In this document: positions 19,615-58,101 of the stretch, piece by piece
Layout of the letters: each line of letters opens with the position of its first letter
Position numbering within the stretch: the stretch's first letter is position 1
Origin: Chalara sp. BL73
Taxonomy: Eukaryota; Ascomycota; Leotiomycetes; Helotiales
Reading direction: 5' to 3'
NCBI GenBank assembly: GCA_918026815.1
Contig: CAKJVC010000256.1
Location: 62,001-126,000, forward strand
Length of the DNA: 64,000 bases
Position numbers and translations under genes: made by a program
Notes under the pieces: model-generated
What the model saw: the letters and a program-made list of their open reading frames with translations, nothing else
Told to the model about the DNA's origin: nothing
The model's database searches: none

Positions 19615-20070
19615 GAACAACAGCAAAATCACCATCTACTACGATCAATATCCTTTGTCACCTCGAAATCACTCGCATTTTTCCAATGTCTACCTGCAGT
19701 CAATCTGCCAGCTCACTATCTGCACGCTCCAAGTCCAATATTCCAAGAGGAACAAGACGCGATATCAGGATACGCAGAAAGCTGTAATCACAACAGTGTG
19801 GTTTTGAATTAATATAGTCCTTGGATTAAACTCATTTGGAAATACCTTAGACACATTCGTGCTGGAGGTGTATCAACCAGCATTCACGGGTTGATGTGCC
19901 TATAGAGCTAGAACAAAGAAACGCCACAAGCTGGATATTATATATGGACAGTTTCAAGCCGGTCTCCGCGTTGGATTTTCCCCAAGCTATCCAAGTGCTA
20001 TTTGAAAACACCCCAATTACAAGTGTCATTCTAGCAGTATTCCTCCTCGCCAATGTGTGCTGGTGCGAGC

Positions 20071-20220
20071 TTCTTTGTCCTTTTGTTCTTTGTCCTTTTG
20101 TTCTTTGTCCTTTTGTTCTTTGTCCTTTTGTTCTTTGTCCTTTTGTTCTTTGTCCTTTTGTTCTTTGTCCTTTTGTTCTTTGTCCTTTTGTTCTTTGTCC
20201 TTTTGTTCTTAGTTCTTTTT
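20071..20220. repeat. 15-bp minisatellite, nine perfect units plus one degenerate
   Basis: Unit TTCTTTGTCCTTTTG is repeated nine times without change from 20071 to 20205. A tenth, altered unit follows at 20206-20220. Because the period is a multiple of three, several frames stay open through it on both strands, giving FVLCP-like or KNKRT-like translations that are not evidence of a gene. Perfect identity implies recent expansion. Confidence 0.97.
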
Positions 20221-20600
20221 GCCCTCTCTATCGTGCATCTACCTTGTTCAGCTGTGCGAGGCTTTACCATTAGATTCTCCGAAGCTATGCAGATGGCCAT
20301 TTTAAGTACCGGCTCTTGCTTGTTTACCATTTTGTCGCCTTTCCTAAAACAACTACCTAGGACTACAGCCCATGCTATTGAAATTTGATGAATCATCCGT
20401 ACCGTGATACTTCAGTATTACCAGATCCGGTCTTTGTCTTTCTTAAAACTAAAGAATAATCACATCAAACTATGGACTTTCAACATCCACCATGGGCTTT
20501 GTTCCTCTATCAAAGACTAGCAAGGTAAACCGATCAACTTCATCATCTCTGGTTATAGTTCTCAAACACGAGAAACCACGCCTCTAGAAACGCTCTACTT

Positions 20601-41165: not shown

Positions 41166-43898
41166 ATGGCCTTCCGAGGAGAGTTTCCCTCGCGCGGGAA
41201 GGCCGTCTTCATCGTGACCACCGTAACCTTCATCTTAGCCACCATCTTCGTCGCCTCCAGACTCATCAGTCGCTTCTTCATCCTGCGACACAAGACCGGC
41301 GATGACTGGCTCATGATCGTGGCATGGGTAAGTTTTCTAGATACCAGGGTGGCGCACCGCAAACAATTAACGCGGTGATAGGTAATTGCCTTTGGCCTGT
41401 CCTTTGCAATCGACTACGGCGCCTTCAGAGGGCTCGGCAGACATGATCACGATATCCCCCAGGAATGGCTACCTGCGCTGCGCCAGTCTGAATATGCCTT
41501 TACCATTCTCTACAACCCCGCCCTGATGGCCACGAAAACCTCGATCCTCGTCTTCTACCTTCGGATGTCGAAAAACACACAGAAGTTTCTGCGCAGAGCG
41601 TCATATGCTACGCTTGCCTTGGTCAATGTGGAAGGGGTCGTTCTCACATTTATCAATGCCTTTCAGTGCAACCCGGTGGCGGCGGCATACACCCCCAGCA
41701 TCCCCGGGAAATGCATGTCCATCGTTACCATATACCTCTGCTCTGCACCGGTTAATCTTGTGGCAAACCTTGCGATTCTGGTTCTGCCAATCCCGCTTCT
41801 CACAGGCATGCGTTTGCCGCAACGGCAGAAGACGGTTCTCGTATTTACCTTTTCCCTAGGGATATTCGTGACCATTGTGGATGTGGTCCGGATCTACTAT
41901 TTGCAGAAAGCCGCAGATACTCAAGCTGCAGATGCTCGGGCTAGCGTGCAGGCGTCTGTGCGGCTTGGAACAGGTCTTGACTTTGCCTGGAACGCAAGCA
42001 TATCTTTGATGTGGAGTGCTGTCGAGGTGAATGTGGGCATCATTTGCGCATGCATTCCCACCTTGAAGCCTCTGATTCGACGTATATTGCCCTCCATGAT
42101 CACGGACATAACACATAGCAGAAGCGACAAGTCTGCTTCTACGGAAGCCCGGATACGAACTAATATATCGCAACAAGACTCTTCACACAGCGCAATGATG
42201 CCAGCGCTGCCATCCGCGGCTCAAGTGCAGAGAGACCAGGATCAGCAGATAGACATGCTAGACTTTCTTACAACGCCAGAAACAAATGCCGCCGCATTGG
42301 AAGAGCGAATGGCTCGATCAGCGGCCGTGAATGGGAGACGAAATATGAACCGCATGGGAAATCTGCGAGCGTCAGGAACCCAAACCACGGAGTCCACATC
42401 TAATACGATATACTTTGGCCTGATCGAAATGAAACGGCCCAAGAGTATGCTCAAGATTCGTGGAATGGAGTCATTCAAGTACTGTACCGCAGTCACAATT
42501 TTGTTTTTCCTGTGGGGATTCTCATATGGATTGTTGAACACCCTGAACGGCCAGATCTCAAAAGTGGCGATGGAGACCCCGACCCAGAGGCTCGGCCTGT
42601 CTTCAGCATACTTCACCGGCTACTTAATTGGTCCGCTGACGGTGGGACAGTGGGTGCTTCGACATTACGGCTTCAAAGCGACTTTCATCTACGGCCTCTG
42701 CATATACGGCATCGGGACACTGATGTTCTGGCCCTCGGCGGTCCAGAAGTCATGGCCGGGATTCTTACTTTGCCAATTTGTCGTCGGCTATGGCTTGTCT
42801 ATATTGGAGACTGCAGCCAATCCATTCATTGCCCTCTGTGGCCCGGCTCAATACGCAGAGTACCGTCTGCTCCTATCCCAGGGGGTCCAAGCGACCGCCT
42901 CTGTTCTGAGTCAACTGCTTGCCCAGAAAGTTCTCTTCGATAACCTGTCGCAGGATGTCCTGCTGGATGTGCAATGGACCTACCTAGCTGTTGCCTTGGT
43001 GTGCGTTATCCTCGCTCTCTTCTTCTACTACATGCCACTCCCAGAAGCCACCGATACCGACCTTCAAAAGCTAGCTGAGAACCTCTCCATCTCCCCTTCC
43101 CAAACAATATTCTCCGACAAGCTACCCCTCATCTACACCACCGCTTTCCTCGCCATATTCTGCCAATTCCTCTATGTCGCCGCTCAGGAAAGCAACGCCG
43201 TCTGGTTCGAGCCTCTTTTCGAAACCCTCTCTCCTATCTCATCTTTTGCCATAACCCTGCAAAATTATACCCTTGTCGCACAAACCCTCTTTGCTGTCTC
43301 CCGCTTCATCTTCGCGGCCCTGTGCCTCATTATACGACCTCGTATCCTTTTGTTAACAGCTTTCCTCCTGGGCACCTTGTTCCTCATCCTTGCTCACACC
43401 CTTGACCTCTCTGCAAACGGCATGGCTGGCCCGATTCTTATGTGGTACTTCTTCGAGGGGCCAATCTTCCCGCTCGTTTTCGCTATCGGCATCCGTGGCA
43501 TGGGAAGATGGACAAAATGGACCGCCGCTATCTTGATTGCCAGCGTTTGTGGCGGCGCGGTTTTCCCGTTTGTGGTGTGGGCTGTGACAAATAATCACTC
43601 CGTACAATACTCTTACTGCGTAATCATTGCTATCATGGCTTTTGGAACATTGTTTCCCATTTACCTCAACGCGGTTCCCGCAGCGAGACACCAGGTTGAT
43701 CCAGCTATCGCGAGCTCGTTGGGGAATAGGCCAATAGAAGAGGACTTGGAGGCAACAGGCGGGAGGGTTAGAAGGATGAGTAAGAGGTTTGTTAGTATAT
43801 TTGGGTCACGCAGGGCGAGTAGCGTTAGCGCCGGAAGCGAGAGCCCACAATTCGAACATAGAGAGGATGATAGTGAGCTAGAGCGGGAAGTAAAATGA
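41166..43898 (+). CDS. Fusion of PTH11/rhodopsin-like seven-helix protein with fucose-permease-type MFS transporter
   Basis: Two exons, 41166-41327 and 41382-43898, give 892 residues. Residues 1 to about 290 form a rhodopsin-like fungal integral membrane domain (SAT4/PTH11-type): helix 1 FIVTTVTFILATIFVASRL, KTGDDWLMIVAW, EYAFTILYNPALMATKTSIL, FQCNPVAAAY, and GLDFAWNASISLMWSAVEVN. A polar linker of about 120 residues follows. From about residue 415 a full FHS/FucP-type MFS domain begins: FFLWGFSYGLLNTLNGQ, GYLIGPLTVGQWVLRHYGFK, ETAANPFIALCG, WFEPLF and MWYFFEGPIFPLVFAIGIRG. A basic, Ser-rich tail ends the protein. The join lies inside one uninterrupted exon, so it is not a splice artefact. 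Receptor-transporter coupling (a transceptor) is inferred. Confidence 0.88.
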
Positions 43899-49173: not shown

Positions 49174-50643
49174 TTACAACACCTTCCGCAACAATATTCT
49201 AACCCTACCAAAAGTCTGACCTAGCCCAGCAAAGCCGAATGTGGGAAGACGAGCAACGAAGAACACTGTGACACAGAGGGGAAGAGCTACAGCAAAGTAG
49301 ATGGCGAGATCGTGCCTTGACACACCCCCATCCATACTAAAAAGACTCGCCACAAACGATAGAGGTACAAAAAGCAATGCGAGGTTAGTCAATCGAGTTA
49401 CGTTTGCTGCTTCCTTTAACGAGCGCCGCATGTCCGTGATCTGAAGGACCGATGTGACAACCGGCACCATGATCTCAAGTCGACGACCATACGTATCAAC
49501 CAAGGCAGCAATATATTCGAAATCTCGAACCAGCAAGGAGTACTGTTCAAGGCCCGTATCGACCTTGTTCTGATATTTAAGAAAATTGATCACAGACTGA
49601 AGTTTACTCGATGTCTGGAGGCAACGACGTCCCCATACCTCGAGAGAGCGCAGGTCCGAATCGATCTTTCTCAGTCTGTGTTTCTCCAATGGGGCTTCTG
49701 TGGAATACTCGTATTGCTTGATGCTATTGCTCATTACTGCGATATAGCTTACCCACTCACCTGCTGCGATTTTCAGGGGGTAGTATGTCAGAGAGAGAAG
49801 CGTAGGGTGCTCAGGCTGGAAAGCTGGAGGTCGCTCTTTCTCCCAGTAATATACGAGGTCTTCAAGGAGAGATGTTCTGCCGGGAGCTCCGGGATCTGGT
49901 TCGACCAAAGGTCGGCGTTCAGAGAAGTCTTCATACCCTCCCTGGAATGGCCGTGATGGAAGCGCTAGCTGCATTTCTGGCGTTGTATATTTTTCAGAGG
50001 TTGGCCTGTCAACGAGTATCACCCCTAGGTCAACTTCAGCTATATCCCCTCTGGGCCGTTTCGTATTACCTAACCATGACATCGACTTAGTGCTCGAAAG
50101 TAGAATAGAGCAGCTCTGTTGCTCCAGCCCGATAAATGTGTTCTTTATTGGAGGCAGAAGCACAAGTCTACGGGGTACATTGCTGTTGCACAACATCTTT
50201 CGCGGCGTTATTGAGCAAGCATCGAAGTCAATAGGCCGCTGATATTGCACACTGAGGAAGTTTTGGGTCAAGGATCTAGAGGGAAGTGTAGCGATGGATG
50301 GTTTAGACGATGCAATATCCATTGTCGGGCCATGTATCTGAGAAGCAAAGAACAGTGGATCAATGTCCAAGGACCATCCGAGCGTCTCGATAATAGCTTT
50401 GCTAAGGTCCTCAATGATTATAATTCGGCCTTGACACCCACGGGCTTCTGCGTTCAAAAGAGCCTCGAGCTCCCGGGGATCGAGATCAGTTCGACGAGGC
50501 TTCTCATCCTGTGCGAAGAACCCGAGGCTAACAATTCTGCAGTCTTGCTTTGCGATATCATTTAACATGAACCGAGAGAGATTTCGAAGACATGGGTTCC
50601 TCTTGCTTTGGGCAACGATATAGTCAGAATATGATTGCGCCAT
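49174..50643 (-). CDS. CorA-like membrane protein
   Basis: An uninterrupted frame of 489 residues from ATG 50643. The C-terminal section has the signature before the first pore helix, RRSLKEAANVTRLTNLALLF, followed by PLSFVASLFSM, which matches the fungal CorA-like pattern. A second helix is at about residues 446-465 (IYFAVALPLCVTVFFVARL). The canonical GMN selectivity motif reads SMD here, so Mg2+ transport is doubtful. The roughly 400-residue N-terminal region is soluble; its second half (LLVRDFEYIAALVDTYGRR) is helical, as in the CorA funnel. Family members in fungi often have unassigned N-terminal domains and unclear roles. It is head-to-head with a RelA/SpoT-domain gene 423 bp away. Confidence 0.82.
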   Translation of the reverse strand: MAQSYSDYIVAQSKRNPCLRNLSRFMLNDIAKQDCRIVSLGFFAQDEKPRRTDLDPRELEALLNAEARGCQGRIIIIEDLSKAIIETLGWSLDIDPLFFASQIHGPTMDIASSKPSIATLPSRSLTQNFLSVQYQRPIDFDACSITPRKMLCNSNVPRRLVLLPPIKNTFIGLEQQSCSILLSSTKSMSWLGNTKRPRGDIAEVDLGVILVDRPTSEKYTTPEMQLALPSRPFQGGYEDFSERRPLVEPDPGAPGRTSLLEDLVYYWEKERPPAFQPEHPTLLSLTYYPLKIAAGEWVSYIAVMSNSIKQYEYSTEAPLEKHRLRKIDSDLRSLEVWGRRCLQTSSKLQSVINFLKYQNKVDTGLEQYSLLVRDFEYIAALVDTYGRRLEIMVPVVTSVLQITDMRRSLKEAANVTRLTNLALLFVPLSFVASLFSMDGGVSRHDLAIYFAVALPLCVTVFFVARLPTFGFAGLGQTFGRVRILLRKVL

Positions 50644-51066
50644 CACTTTCTCGAAGATTAGCAATGGACTCGAACGGCCTTGTCAAGACTTTCCGGACTG
50701 AAAGCCTTTCAGTGTGCCTTATTGTTGTGCGGGAGCTGGTCTCCCAGGTGGCGGCCCAGCGCTTGGCCTTAAAGTTGGTAGTGTGCGCTGCAAAAACCTG
50801 GCCCCGTGACAGAGCGCCTGCAGTCCAGCTTGCAGCCGGTGTGGAAGCCTTGTGTGACGTGTGGGAACCCGTCCCGAATAGAATGGTTGAGGCCGACATA
50901 ATGTGCAACGACCTTTAGAGCCTTGCGCAAATTTTTGTATTATGGTGCTGCAGTAAGTGACTCTGCATGTTGTCATCGAAGGATCTTTGACAAGAAACTA
51001 ACCATGTGCAATACTTTTTGGAACTTGTCTACTTCATTTCCAACGAGGCTTCCACCACATTGACAA
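50644..51066. promoter_or_regulatory. 423-bp bidirectional promoter of the CorA-like and RelA/SpoT genes
   Basis: The two start codons face away from each other with no other gene between. Open frames covering this stretch lack known motifs and overlap both strands. No core element is assigned. Co-expression is inferred. Confidence 0.5.
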
Positions 51067-53393
51067 ATGATGGCTGCGAATGTTCTCTCGAATGCTTATT
51101 ACGATGCTGGAGGTAGGACAGACCCTTCAGTCGATATTATCTCGTCGTTTATGGCAGATTGGGTGCCCCACAAATACTTCTACTCCGAAGCAGCCAGCCT
51201 TGCCCAAGAACTTTGCGAAACTCTCCTTGCAAGCAGTGCCATTCGCGCAATCGTCACTCATCGAGTAAAGCAAGATCACCGACTGGAAGCGAAACTCAGA
51301 GAACGAGTTCGAAAGCTGGGGCGAGAGTACCGGAGTGCGAAACAAATCCGCGACGATATTGTTGATCTTGCTGGAGTACGCATTGCTCTTTACTTCCCCA
51401 GCGACAGGGAAAAGATTGTCCAGATCATTCACGATGCCTTCACAGTGGTCAAGCACAAAACCTTTCCAGAACAGGACGACAAACGGGTTTCTGACTCGAT
51501 GTCCCAAGTGACAGAGACGTCTCTAGACTTCCAACAGCGTTTCCCTGGCTATTCTGCTGACCACTACCGTGTACGAATGAGAGTGGAGAACTTGGCAACT
51601 AAAAGGCTTCGAGACGACTTCCAGAAGGTGAATCCAGTCATCGAAATTCAGGTGGCATCAGTGCTTATGCACGCTTGGGCGGAGATTGACCACGATCTTG
51701 TGTACAAGACTCTCACCGGTGGACCTGCTTCACAGCAAGAACTTCGTCTTCTAGATGCCACTAATGGCCTTGTATGTACAGGCGAAGTGCTGTTACAGCA
51801 ATTGCAGACCGCCATGGATGATCGTGTGGCATATCAAAAGAAATCATTCAGTGAACAATATGAGCTCTTAAGCTTCTTGCGCGGGCAGATTAAGAAAGTA
51901 GAAGGATCTATGGAACACTTGGATGTCTTGCTGCTTGTATTTTATCTCTCCCTGAAGCCTCGCCATTGGCTTGAAGCCGTTTTGGCATGCTGAGCTGATT
52001 GTTGAAATAGGTATTGAAGATTACAACTCTCGACTCACCGCGAAGGTTAGGTGAAACCCTTGAGGGCTTCATGGTTCCATCCAAGAGCGCGGATCCTATT
52101 GCTCTCACAATACTAGAGCACATTCTCACCACACTCGGGGAGGAGCAGCGTCGTGACAATAACCTTTATCTCCGATCAAGGTCGGTTGTGCTCAGCGATC
52201 TCGAAATTGACAAGAAAAATTACAAATGCTACACGACGGACGTCGAGACACGCGACAAGATCCTCAACCAGAGAAGTATCCTCGAGACAGCAGTATGTGT
52301 TACAGATATCTTGCGATTCCCCAAAAAGTCGATTCTAGTCATTGAGGGAATGCCACAGAAGTTCACAAAGTTTTATGCCCTCTACAATCTCGTCCAGTTT
52401 GCAAATATTCGTCCCGATAAAGGAAGCAAAGATGAGGACAGGTGGTTATGTGAGATGTCACTGAAGGAACTCGATCCTCTATGGACGTGGTTCGAGACCA
52501 ATGACGACGTTCTATTCAGAGTCTCTTTGCTGCTGGCAAGGATGAACGTGAAGGACATTGACGAAGAGCTGATCAAGCTACGACCTTCGAGTGGTTTCCA
52601 GCGCCAGCCGTCCGTGTTCGAACCCAATCTAGGATACATGAGCCCTCGAATTCCGAGCGCAAAATTGTTCGGCCAAAGTCCTCCCCATGACGATGAGGAT
52701 GCGGAGTCAAGGCTGCATCCAATTAGAAGTACTCCAAAAAGCTCAGAGAAGTCGAGGCCCACTTCGAATTCTGTGAGCTCCCAGGAAGAACAAAACACCG
52801 CCCGAAAGAGAGCTGCTCTTGTGCCAGAACATAGGAGAAACTCAGACATAGAAGAAGAGGAAGAGGAAGAAGCTTCCGCTATCTTGGTAGTAGAGCGTAC
52901 GAGGAGGCCATATCACGGGCCAGGCAAGAAGCAAGAAGCAAATAAACCACCAGAGCGACCTTTTCCCAGTATAATACCAATACCAGGAGTAGCAAAGCGC
53001 CCATTTGGTCCCGCTGAAGAATCACAGGAGCCTTCAAGATCGATGCCAGGGGTAGGAATATCTGAAGAAACGGAACATTATTCCGCCTACACTCAGGACA
53101 AACAGAATGCTACAAAGTACCGGAGAACGGGGCAGAATGCTCATGCCACCGAAGGTGGTTCGGTGGACTTCGATGAGAAATCAAGAAAGGCAGGGCTATA
53201 CAGGCCACAATCGCCACCAATGGCGAGACTAAGGGATCGTCTACGGTCTCGGACAGCAACAGCTTCCATGCCTGAAGAATATCCACAGATGGATGGTTCG
53301 TATAGCCCCAATCCAGGAATAAACTCACGGCGCGGGGCACACTCCACAAAGTATTCATATGGGGCGAGAAGGGGGTACCCTTGTTCGACTTAA
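51067..53393 (+). CDS. Fungal RelA/SpoT-domain protein (predicted nucleotide pyrophosphokinase)
   Basis: Exons 51067-51936 and 52011-53393 (74-nt intron, phase 0) give 750 residues. The RelA/SpoT synthetase domain spans about residues 50-280: basic HRVKQDHRLEAKLRERV, then DDIVDLAGVRIALYF with the metal-binding Asp100, the FPGYSADHYRV loop with the stacking Tyr162, and VIEIQVASVLMHAWAEIDHD with catalytic-type Glu193. No HD hydrolase and no TGS/ACT domains are present, so it resembles a synthetase-only protein. A second conserved region (about 290-480) follows, and then a long disordered, Glu- and Arg-rich tail. Family knowledge: such domains make (p)ppGpp-like alarmones or pyrophosphorylate nucleotides or RNA; which applies to fungal members is unknown to me. 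Key residues are intact. Confidence 0.85.
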
Positions 53394-55050: not shown

Positions 55051-57507
55051 GTTTGAAGGCGACAGGGAAAGCTTCCGTGAAGAACGGGTTAAGGCTTTTC
55101 GGATTGACACTAAGCTTTGAGCGATGTAGGAGCGAGGAGGCCGCTGTGGCTACTTAAGGAACAGCCCACCGAGGAGAGAATGACGGTTTTATAGAGAAAC
55201 CTATGCTGCGAACCTGGGCAGACATCGCGTCCGTGACAAGAGATGGAGAGTCATAAGCTGCTCTCTAATTTGCCCGTCCTCATGGCGGCGGCGTAGCTAT
55301 TTGGAACCCGCTTGGCAGCTGGGTTCCCCTCTTCCGATTAACTACAGCCCGCCTATCTTTTGCACTTTCAGAGTCATTCGAGCTTGTTTATCTGTTACTG
55401 TGTAAACTACTTGTTTTGAGCAATGTTGCGAGTGCGACTATACCATGCGGCCCATCCAGCATTCAGAGAGTCCACGAGTTCCCAACCAGCCCCTTCCCAA
55501 AGGCAGGATTGGGCTGAAGGAGCTGCTGTAAGACCTTGAATGGTAGCATGCCGTTAGCAAAGCGCTCTTGGGTTATTGGTTTTCTGATACTTTTGTACAG
55601 GACCAAACTATTAGCAGGGGGGGCTGCAATGTGGCGAAGGGAAGTGTTGGAAAGTTATTGGTGGATCTGTGATTATTGACCCTTGACGAAGGCTTCTCCG
55701 CTTCTAATAGTTTGGGCTTGGTAGGAAAGAAGAACAAAAGCACTTTTCGAGCTCCGCCGTTTGCTGAATATATTACTGACGCCAAGCTTTCGTTAGAGGT
55801 TGTGGAAACGCCAAGCATGGCCACCTATTCTGACATAGTTATTCCTTGATTGTTTACGCTGTTTGATCCTCAGTTGTAGATAGATGCTATTCTGGAGATT
55901 CAATCAAATGTCTATGCCCCATTCTAGATCCATGCCCATCTATTTTGTAGACCGTATTACAGGTTTGACAGATATGCACTCCGTTGAAATAGTGCCCATA
56001 TAAAAATATGAAGTGTCGAAGCACTTCGCTCCAGGATGTTCTGGGCAACATCTGGCTACTTGAAAAACCTTGTCATATATATACTTCCCTGGGATACAAG
56101 TGCAACGAATCCAAGTTAGTTCGTATAACCGTAAGTAGAGTGCCAACGAGCTTGCTTGCCGGCTGCGCGGTCATCGCTTTCTGCGTAACCGGGATCCTCT
56201 GTGGCTGTACATACATAAATCATATGTGTGGATATCGAGGCTTGCTGATAGCAGCCGTACCTACTAGAGAAAATGCGAATCGGAGACTCGGATGTGCAAG
56301 GCCGAGTTACTCATATAGTACTAACTAATAAGTTCTCGATTTTTTCTTTCCTTTTCTCGCGATTCTACACTAACAGCTATAGTTTACAGCTTTATAATAT
56401 CCAGCGTAACATGGCTCACAGTCCTCATTATTACAAAGCTCTGAATCTAATGAGTGAGATTTGTTAGCAACTTGGCAAATCACTTTTATTGTAGTAAAGC
56501 TTTTAACCTTTGTAATATAAAATTAGAAGCGTCGTACTATCAAGTTGCACTGACCTCCCTCGTAGGATTAGCTATTCCTACGCTCTATATTATCCTGCTT
56601 AACCATTAACCATAAAGCTTTTATTTTTAAAACTAACTATGCATTTATATAAAGCCTTGTAATTGCTGGAGTTTTAAAAATTCTAAAGCTTATGGACTTT
56701 CTAGAACCCTGAATTATTTTTAGGTCCACCACATGATTATTAACTTTTAGGTTCTTTGTGTAAGCGAGCTTGCTCAGGCCCAAGCCCAAAAGTCGCATAT
56801 ACCTGTTACCCAACTGTATCAGAACTGTACAATGCAATCCTTTATTAACTAAAACAAACAAAACGGAATGGATACTTACATGTACACAAACATGCATTTA
56901 TACGGGTCAGGATTTCATGTAACTAGGCAGCTAGGTCACGTACGGGACAAAACTACTCCAAAATCACGCGATTGTACATGCAAACGCTTGCCAGTGGCTG
57001 TTTGCAAATTGCCACAAGAAGACCCGGCCCTATAACGAGATCTTCAAAGTCCGAGTGCCTTACAAATGAAATAATGCATATTGTGAACGCACTGGATTCT
57101 CACGACATGATTCCACCGCTATGTGAAATAGCAAAGGAGCCAGGAGCGAAGGGTAATGGAGCCGTGCGGCTAATGGCATCCAAGAACCGTATATTCGCAA
57201 GGACAACGAAAGCGCATTATGCATTAGGGCTAAAAGTAATAAATGGGGGTGGTGTTGTGTGTATTCCCTTTGGTGGAATGATGCCATTTGCTTTACGTTC
57301 GTGGAGACACTAATTTTTGCTAGTTGGCTAGTGCTATGTGCATGGATTGATGGACGGGGAAGCGACAAATTTGCTAGACCAAGGGGCTCTTACTTAAAAT
57401 GCCTTTGGTCTTGTTTGGTGGGCCTAGTGATGAGATTTTATTAACCGCTAACACATGTTTTACTTGCTCTAGGATATGTGACTGGTTGTAGTGGAAGTGA
57501 CATATAA
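55051..57507. other. Intergenic, partly AT-rich, no gene recognised
   Basis: 2.46 kb. The first few hundred bases are the probable promoter of the secreted peptide gene. 56330-56760 is AT-rich. Overlapping short frames at 55573-55824, 55940-56467 and 56972-57444 show no known domain. Confidence 0.4.
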
Positions 57508-58101
57508 TCAACTACTCCCTTGCATCTCTTTCGCCTCCCTTCTGGTCCGAAAACCTTCAAGCACGGTAGCTTCCAGATCCGCTGTAGTATATTCCAGCTC
57601 CATATCTCCCACCTTCCTCGCTTTTGCCTCGTCTTCTGTAGCCCAAACAAATCTCTGATGCTCCTTCGGATCCAATTTCACATCCATGACCCCCACGGCG
57701 CTCTTTACCTCCACCAAGAAGTTGAACCTACAGACCTGCTTTCCAGACCGACTCTCAAAGAACTGGGGATCTCCAACAAGAGACCCGATCCTGGCGGCAG
57801 TGAGCGCCGCTTCTTCCCAAAGCTCCCGTGTTACAGCGTGCAGGATACTTTCATCCTCGTCATCCACGCCGCCACCGGGAATCTCCCACCGGCCCGGCAG
57901 GCTATCGTCGGCGGCGCGTTGAATGAGAAGGATGCGGGGGTCGGAGGCGCTGGAGTCATCGAAGACAAGCGCCCCCGTGGCGAGGTAATTGTATTTTTCG
58001 CCAGGGTGGTTGGCTTTGTATTGTTCAGAGGAGACGGCGAAGAGCGACGAAGAGGGATGATAAGTGAAGCTGGGGAGCGGCAAGTGCGGCATCTGTGGCA
58101 T
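57508..58101 (-). CDS. Nudix hydrolase
   Basis: A single frame of 197 residues. The Nudix box occupies about residues 78-100: Gly78-x5-Glu84-x7 and then RELWEEAAL, so the REUxEE core (Glu93, Glu96, Glu97) that binds metal is intact, while the usual Gly two residues after it is Ala99. Flanking strands are ATGALVFDD and RILLIQRAADDSLPGRWEIP. Family members hydrolyse nucleoside diphosphate-linked compounds. The C-terminal helix region (ELEYTTADLEATVLEGF) is usual for ADP-ribose/NTP-type fungal Nudix proteins. The substrate cannot be told. Start: first ATG, with a second at residue 4. Confidence 0.88.
   Translation of the reverse strand: MPQMPHLPLPSFTYHPSSSLFAVSSEQYKANHPGEKYNYLATGALVFDDSSASDPRILLIQRAADDSLPGRWEIPGGGVDDEDESILHAVTRELWEEAALTAARIGSLVGDPQFFESRSGKQVCRFNFLVEVKSAVGVMDVKLDPKEHQRFVWATEDEAKARKVGDMELEYTTADLEATVLEGFRTRREAKEMQGSS

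Follow-up and report, generated by a model that had tools for sequence, protein, structure and literature searches.

A conserved Helotiales gene pair of an alarmone synthetase-like gene and a CorA-like membrane protein gene

The DNA analysed here, a window of 64,000 nucleotides at C198:62001-126000 in a genome of 58.66 Mb and 199 contigs, carries a RelA/SpoT homologue (RSH) gene, RSH1, beside the gene of a CorA-like membrane protein. RSH1 runs on the plus strand from its ATG at 51067 to 53393 and encodes a protein of 750 residues in two exons. Exon 1 (51067..51936, +) holds the synthetase domain and the start of a helical linker, as supported by a Pfam match over the cut-off, the catalytic residues and the splice model. 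A 74-nt intron (51937..52010, +; GTATTT...ATAG, of the GT..AG type) keeps the frame, and exon 2 (52011..53393, +) encodes the rest of the linker, a fungal helical domain with an LWxWFxxN motif, a disordered tail and the stop. This splice was chosen among several open ones because its junction matches that of full-length homologues. The CorA-like gene lies on the minus strand (49174..50643, -), with its ATG at 50643 and its stop at 49174, and encodes 489 residues in a single exon without intron. Just as a preliminary description of the locus had placed them, the two genes stand head-to-head with 423 bp between their start codons (50644..51066), a gap that might serve as a shared promoter. The closest protein relatives of both genes among the matches listed come from Helotiales (Mollisia, Acephala, Phialocephala) and Bisporella, and the host fungus appears helotialean-like from its sequence.

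The RelA_SpoT domain PF04607 matches exon 1 of RSH1 with an E value of 2.9e-12 and a score of 47.3 bits (cut-off, 27 bits). It is the sole Pfam domain over cut-off in the two exons, as expected for the synthetase-only protein described earlier; the same scan revealed no HD hydrolase, TGS or ACT domain, and no NACHT, NB-ARC or repeat domain. Residues Asp100, Arg105, Tyr162 and Glu193 are all in place, and the earlier reading of Asp100, Tyr162 and Glu193 was exactly right in both kind and number. The Asp, Arg and Tyr are present in 19 of 19 fungal RSH rows and the Glu in 18, the remaining row being a gap at this position. The four are assigned the catalytic roles known for RelQ and RelA. A structural model of an RSH1 homologue found its best match in the small alarmone synthetases, with RelQ and RelP far above the enzymes resembling toxic small alarmone synthetases (toxSAS). 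The PADLOC, NCBIfam and PHROGs collections contributed a match to YjbM below the cut-off and unnamed phage families with the same synthetase. Judged from its sequence, RSH1 is a catalytically intact-looking small alarmone synthetase, and the enzyme looks active; this goes against the inactive synthetase domain that had been named beforehand as a possible refutation.

The membrane protein scores 17.8 bits with the Pfam CorA profile (PF01544), below the cut-off of 27, and its homologues in Phialocephala and Mollisia score 26.8 (just below) and 32.6 (above). A search of the genome with PF01544, exon by exon, yielded 21 matches, the window copy not among them. The PADLOC, NCBIfam and PHROGs searches added weak CorA-like matches, and a comparison of profiles linked the protein to CorA chains with an E value of 9.6e-8. 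The AlphaFold model, with a predicted local distance difference test (pLDDT) score of 84.4, was matched by Foldseek to Thermotoga CorA with an E value of 4.3e-8, a probability of 1.00 and a root-mean-square deviation of 8.7, and the template modelling score (TM-score) was 0.38 by query and 0.50 by target. In its predicted model, the window membrane protein has the CorA fold. The GMN signature is absent, SMD standing in its place, and the protein is therefore classed as CorA-like and not as a canonical CorA. Among 36 family rows, this column reads SMN in 20, SMD in four, SMS in three, GMS in three and GMN in one, with four further variants once each and one gap. The preliminary description had read the SMD correctly, but the altered motif does not mark a special effector: the subfamily mostly carries SM plus a variable residue, which makes the alteration a family trait. 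Searched against the genome, the window protein found eight matches in seven places with E values no higher than 0.01, itself among them. Four other CorA-like paralogues (C134, C62, C84 and C9) were also checked for a neighbouring nucleotide enzyme, and none was recognised when the open reading frames around them were read by eye.

The two genes also stand together in other fungi. Linkage was read from protein listings that give species, locus tags and the length of the longest contig, in which an equal length is strong but indirect evidence. About 8,000 candidates were scored in each search, and the two RSH searches listed 120 of 643 and 120 of 1,240 matches; 38 of the 185 RSH proteins listed were taken as fungal by eye, from a name, high identity or a fungal C-terminus. 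The CorA-like side of the test comprised all 65 entries listed. In every named fungus for which both proteins were listed (5 of 5, each pair from one species), they share a contig. Mollisia scopiformis and Acephala macrosclerotiorum have both proteins on a contig of equal length, and the locus tags are consecutive in Phialocephala subalpina (PAC_01182/01183), Bisporella sp. (690880/690881) and Hymenoscyphus albidus (13753/13754). Both proteins also occur on two metagenome contigs of 8,011 and 32,667 bp. Pairs on contigs of exactly equal length numbered 7, against a mean of 0.11 after shifting one list by 1-200 either way, and the linkage persists at identities as low as 54% for the RSH, and at 56% identity for the CorA-like protein. 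Counted from the other side, six named species have a CorA-like protein of at least 50% identity, and for five of them an RSH is listed with a contig of matching length. Conserved adjacency in related species had been named beforehand as a test, and its outcome was favourable, with linkage in all five named fungi for which both proteins were listed and on both metagenome contigs. The linkage of the RSH and CorA-like genes is conserved among several Helotiales.

As the pair has been kept in several relatives, RSH1 and the CorA-like protein may form one signalling unit. We propose that this conserved Helotiales gene pair combines an alarmone synthetase and a CorA-fold protein acting in one stress response, and we put the probability of such coupling at about 0.5. 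From the fold and residues observed, we infer an activity, a product and a trigger: under stress, RSH1 would most likely act in the cytosol, using ATP to pyrophosphorylate a guanine (or adenine) nucleotide. Its partner, whose filter motif is non-canonical, has a modelled fold that suggests an oligomeric protein, probably a channel or transporter of cations. The two genes are probably co-expressed from the gap between them, and nucleotide level and cation flux would be coupled in one stress response. The conserved link to a channel-like protein offers a concrete candidate partner for a fungal alarmone synthetase; a response of the channel to the nucleotide, if there is one, would place an alarmone target outside the chloroplast of a eukaryotic cell.

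Several points weigh against such coupling. Five of the ten named fungal taxa with an RSH among the matches listed (Venustampulla, Cudoniella, Hymenoscyphus fraxineus, Monilinia fructicola and Thozetella) have no CorA-like entry there, and therefore the link is not obligate. Halenospora varia has a CorA-like protein (51% identical) and no RSH among the matches listed. Absences of either kind are weak evidence because the listings cover part of the matches. The only other PF04607 match in the genome, RSH2 (C7:274169-274633, 28% identical to RSH1), has no CorA-like neighbour, and none of the genome-wide CorA-like or PF01544 matches falls on C7. No CCAAT, AGGGG or TATAAA was found in the 423-bp gap when both strands were scanned. 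Strand orientation was read within the window, and the linkage elsewhere is judged against shifted lists and not against a baseline of Helotiales synteny. Ordinary synteny, in which the neighbours are kept without functional coupling, perhaps since a common promoter makes them difficult to separate, is a real possibility, although a tentative one. Such a history would agree with the species among the matches listed in which the two genes are apart, with the lack of such a neighbour at RSH2 and with 80 bacterial RSH loci that show no recurrent CorA-like partner by a crude motif test, and it is opposed by the linkage in five of five named species and two metagenome contigs at the identities given above.

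The C-terminal region of RSH1, judged from the homologue model (P0007), is helical to about residue 480 and disordered from residue 490, and its LWxWFxxN motif occurs in 18 of 19 fungal rows. Profile homology between fungi and bacteria past the synthetase extends over a helical linker of 67 columns (hhalign probability 96.5%) and then ends. The closest bacterial relatives considered, RelA/SpoT proteins of about 440 residues from Paenibacillus, Herbivorax, Lutispora and others, are about 40% identical to RSH1 across the synthetase and the helical linker; their C-terminus is often HEPN-like and does not align with that of the fungi. A mixed alignment of 56 members gave, at E values up to 0.1, matches to HEPN_RiboL-PSP (12), HepT-like (7), DUF4145 (6) and HEPN_Cthe2314 (3); the best HEPN-type E value was 1.7e-4, and most matches with known scores were below the Pfam cut-offs. 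An RN-x(2,4)-H motif past residue 250 was found in 45 of 80 bacterial proteins, against a mean of 2.4 after shuffling. The HEPN-like end with an RNxxVHG-type motif, frequent among these bacterial proteins (loci L019-L098), may represent a synthetase-HEPN fusion. The words RelA, SpoT and ppGpp did not turn up when the available text of a HEPN superfamily survey (PMC3710099) was searched. The idea, taken from position, that the fungal C-terminus is a degenerate HEPN domain was discarded, as the profile comparison aligned the linker only; VIA-align of the homologue model also returned no HEPN row, though synthetase matches filled its list.

The neighbourhoods of the best 80 of 198 bacterial loci were compared by clustering the neighbours within four crude gene calls, and the recurrent ones look like lineage synteny. 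A scan of all open reading frames in these loci for [YF]G[MI]N, again a crude motif test, gave five proteins, none recognisably CorA, four of which belong to one transporter-like family. A bacterial operon ancestor of the pair was rejected on this basis, and the bacterial pairing of nucleotide enzymes with membrane effectors, which the preliminary description had cited, found no recurrent CorA-like counterpart in this crude test among the bacterial kin of RSH1. A NUDIX motif occurs in 11 of the 80 loci, and 10 of the 11 sit 3-6 genes upstream in metagenome-assembled genomes of Bacillota with a common gene order. One quick tree of 66 rows, including 40 of the 80 bacterial loci, placed all 40 bacterial rows on one side of one branch (Shimodaira-Hasegawa-like approximate likelihood ratio test 93), with no visible bacterial donor of the fungal RSH. 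RSH2 forms a very long branch in this tree, and the metagenome proteins P0192-P0195, counted as fungal, fall between the named fungi and the bacteria.

A NUDIX hydrolase gene (57508..58101, -) lies 4.1 kb beyond RSH1, with a PF00293 score of 59.6 bits against a cut-off of 21.1, and is a candidate third member only. A relative of it, belonging to a subfamily that occurs at three places in the genome, lies 2.7 kb before RSH2 (C7:270736-271244, +; locus L013). It is 48% and 42% identical to the RSH1-side protein in two pieces in different frames, and therefore contains a frameshift or an unrecognised intron. Another NUDIX match is found about 6.6 kb beyond RSH2. A simple estimate, made after the arrangement had been noticed, puts at about 1e-5 the probability of finding one of 20 NUDIX matches within 5 kb of each of two given genes. 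Both loci also carry a remnant that resembles, in a motif, the C-terminus of heterokaryon-incompatibility (HET) domain proteins, at 56927-57400 (+) near RSH1 and at C7:271533-271784 (-), with stops, near RSH2. The two remnants are 32% identical over 84 residues (E value 1e-4); Pfam finds nothing in them, and their top match elsewhere in the genome (C82:1237074-1237409) is 0.8 kb from a PF06985 HET match. Two independent events were rejected as the origin of the NUDIX genes, since the remnant is common to both loci and, near RSH2, lies with the NUDIX relative at C7:270.7-271.9 kb; one old block duplication may explain both, making them a single event. The NUDIX gene near RSH1 is a candidate for the missing alarmone hydrolase or a relic of this duplication.

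A six-frame search of the genome, which could miss a split exon, gave no match to HD_4 (PF13328), the hydrolase domain of the RSH type; the domain was found in 10 of 14 control genomes. With no HD-type hydrolase found to remove an alarmone, and with a long tail that is disordered in the homologue model, RSH1 might retain the fold as a scaffold or regulator and have ceased to be an alarmone enzyme in vivo, beside a magnesium transporter. We consider this improbable, as the motif residues are kept across fungi and bacteria, unexpected for a dead enzyme, and other hydrolases (NUDIX) serve plants and bacteria according to Atkinson 2011 (PMC3153485).

The HET repertoire of this genome is very large, with at least 150 scored HET-domain matches among 766 candidates. 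RSH1 could also be imagined in a toxin-like unit for conflict or self/non-self defence, as a toxSAS-like enzyme that acts by tRNA pyrophosphorylation or a toxic nucleotide and is either checked by the membrane partner or works with it. The nearby HET-like remnant means little here because HET genes are so common in the genome. RelQ and RelP are much better structural matches than toxSAS, the RSH gene is widely kept in Helotiales and Pfam finds no NOD-like receptor (NLR) domain in RSH1, which makes such a unit very unlikely. Support for a self/non-self role of the pair is circumstantial. A CorA-domain gene is reported as a vegetative-incompatibility candidate in Morchella importuna, in which strains with the same allele still formed barrages (PMC8940278). 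CorA-like genes, not assigned to a subfamily, are reported as down-regulated with mycoviruses (PMC6088430) and with bacterial symbionts (PMC9040847), which speaks against a defence role.

In a more specific form of the proposed coupling, a eukaryotic module of second messenger and channel, a hyperphosphorylated nucleotide made by RSH1 would gate the adjacent CorA-like channel by binding to its cytosolic domain, and the NUDIX enzyme close by would be the off-switch. We regard this as unlikely. If true, it would provide a fungal analogue of SAM-AMP/CorA signalling, and the off-switch would explain alarmone clearance in a fungus where no HD-type hydrolase was found.

Two other features of the window were noted. 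A single open frame of 838 residues (41382-43895, +) joins a fungal rhodopsin domain to a major facilitator superfamily transporter domain, as a fusion or two merged genes. An open frame at 19851-20273 (+) with nine tandem LCPFV peptide copies is probably a minisatellite.

A literature search that covered few subscription papers found no description of an RSH and CorA-like pair. The idea of an undescribed module may hold for the pair, but RelA_SpoT was already known in fungi. In the available text of two papers (Dyrka 2014, PMC4986451; Daskalov 2023, PMC10197012), RelA_SpoT appears among the effector domains of NLRs; the latter, a review, describes what alarmone metabolites do in fungi as poorly documented. 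NLRs of fungi that carry RelA_SpoT at the N-terminus share with RSH1 the domain and the filamentous ascomycete host, whereas RSH1 lacks NACHT, NB-ARC and repeats. CorA/Mrs2 magnesium channels have the same predicted fold as the membrane protein, with a long stalk helix and two membrane helices; they differ in that GMN is replaced in the fungal family and the window copy is under the Pfam cut-off. In the SAM-AMP/CorA system of type III CRISPR, a nucleotide-making enzyme is likewise encoded with a CorA-family membrane protein, and a nucleotide second messenger binds this effector, which is associated with a degrading enzyme (Chi 2023, PMC10600005); at the fungal locus, the NUDIX gene 4.1 kb off would be a candidate for such an enzyme. 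The likeness is an analogy only, since in that prokaryotic, RNA-guided system the signal is made by Cas10, whereas the fungal enzyme is an RSH. Stand-alone divRel synthetases of Aspergillus nidulans, A. fumigatus and Gibberella zeae are described by Atkinson 2011 (PMC3153485), whose available text states that an RSH hydrolase is missing from these fungi and mentions a Thermus Nudix enzyme that degrades ppGpp. RelQ/YjbM, RelP and fungal divRel share with RSH1 the synthetase domain and its motif residues, with no hydrolase domain found, and to these RSH1 adds a fungal helical C-terminal domain, a long disordered tail and a conserved CorA-like neighbour.

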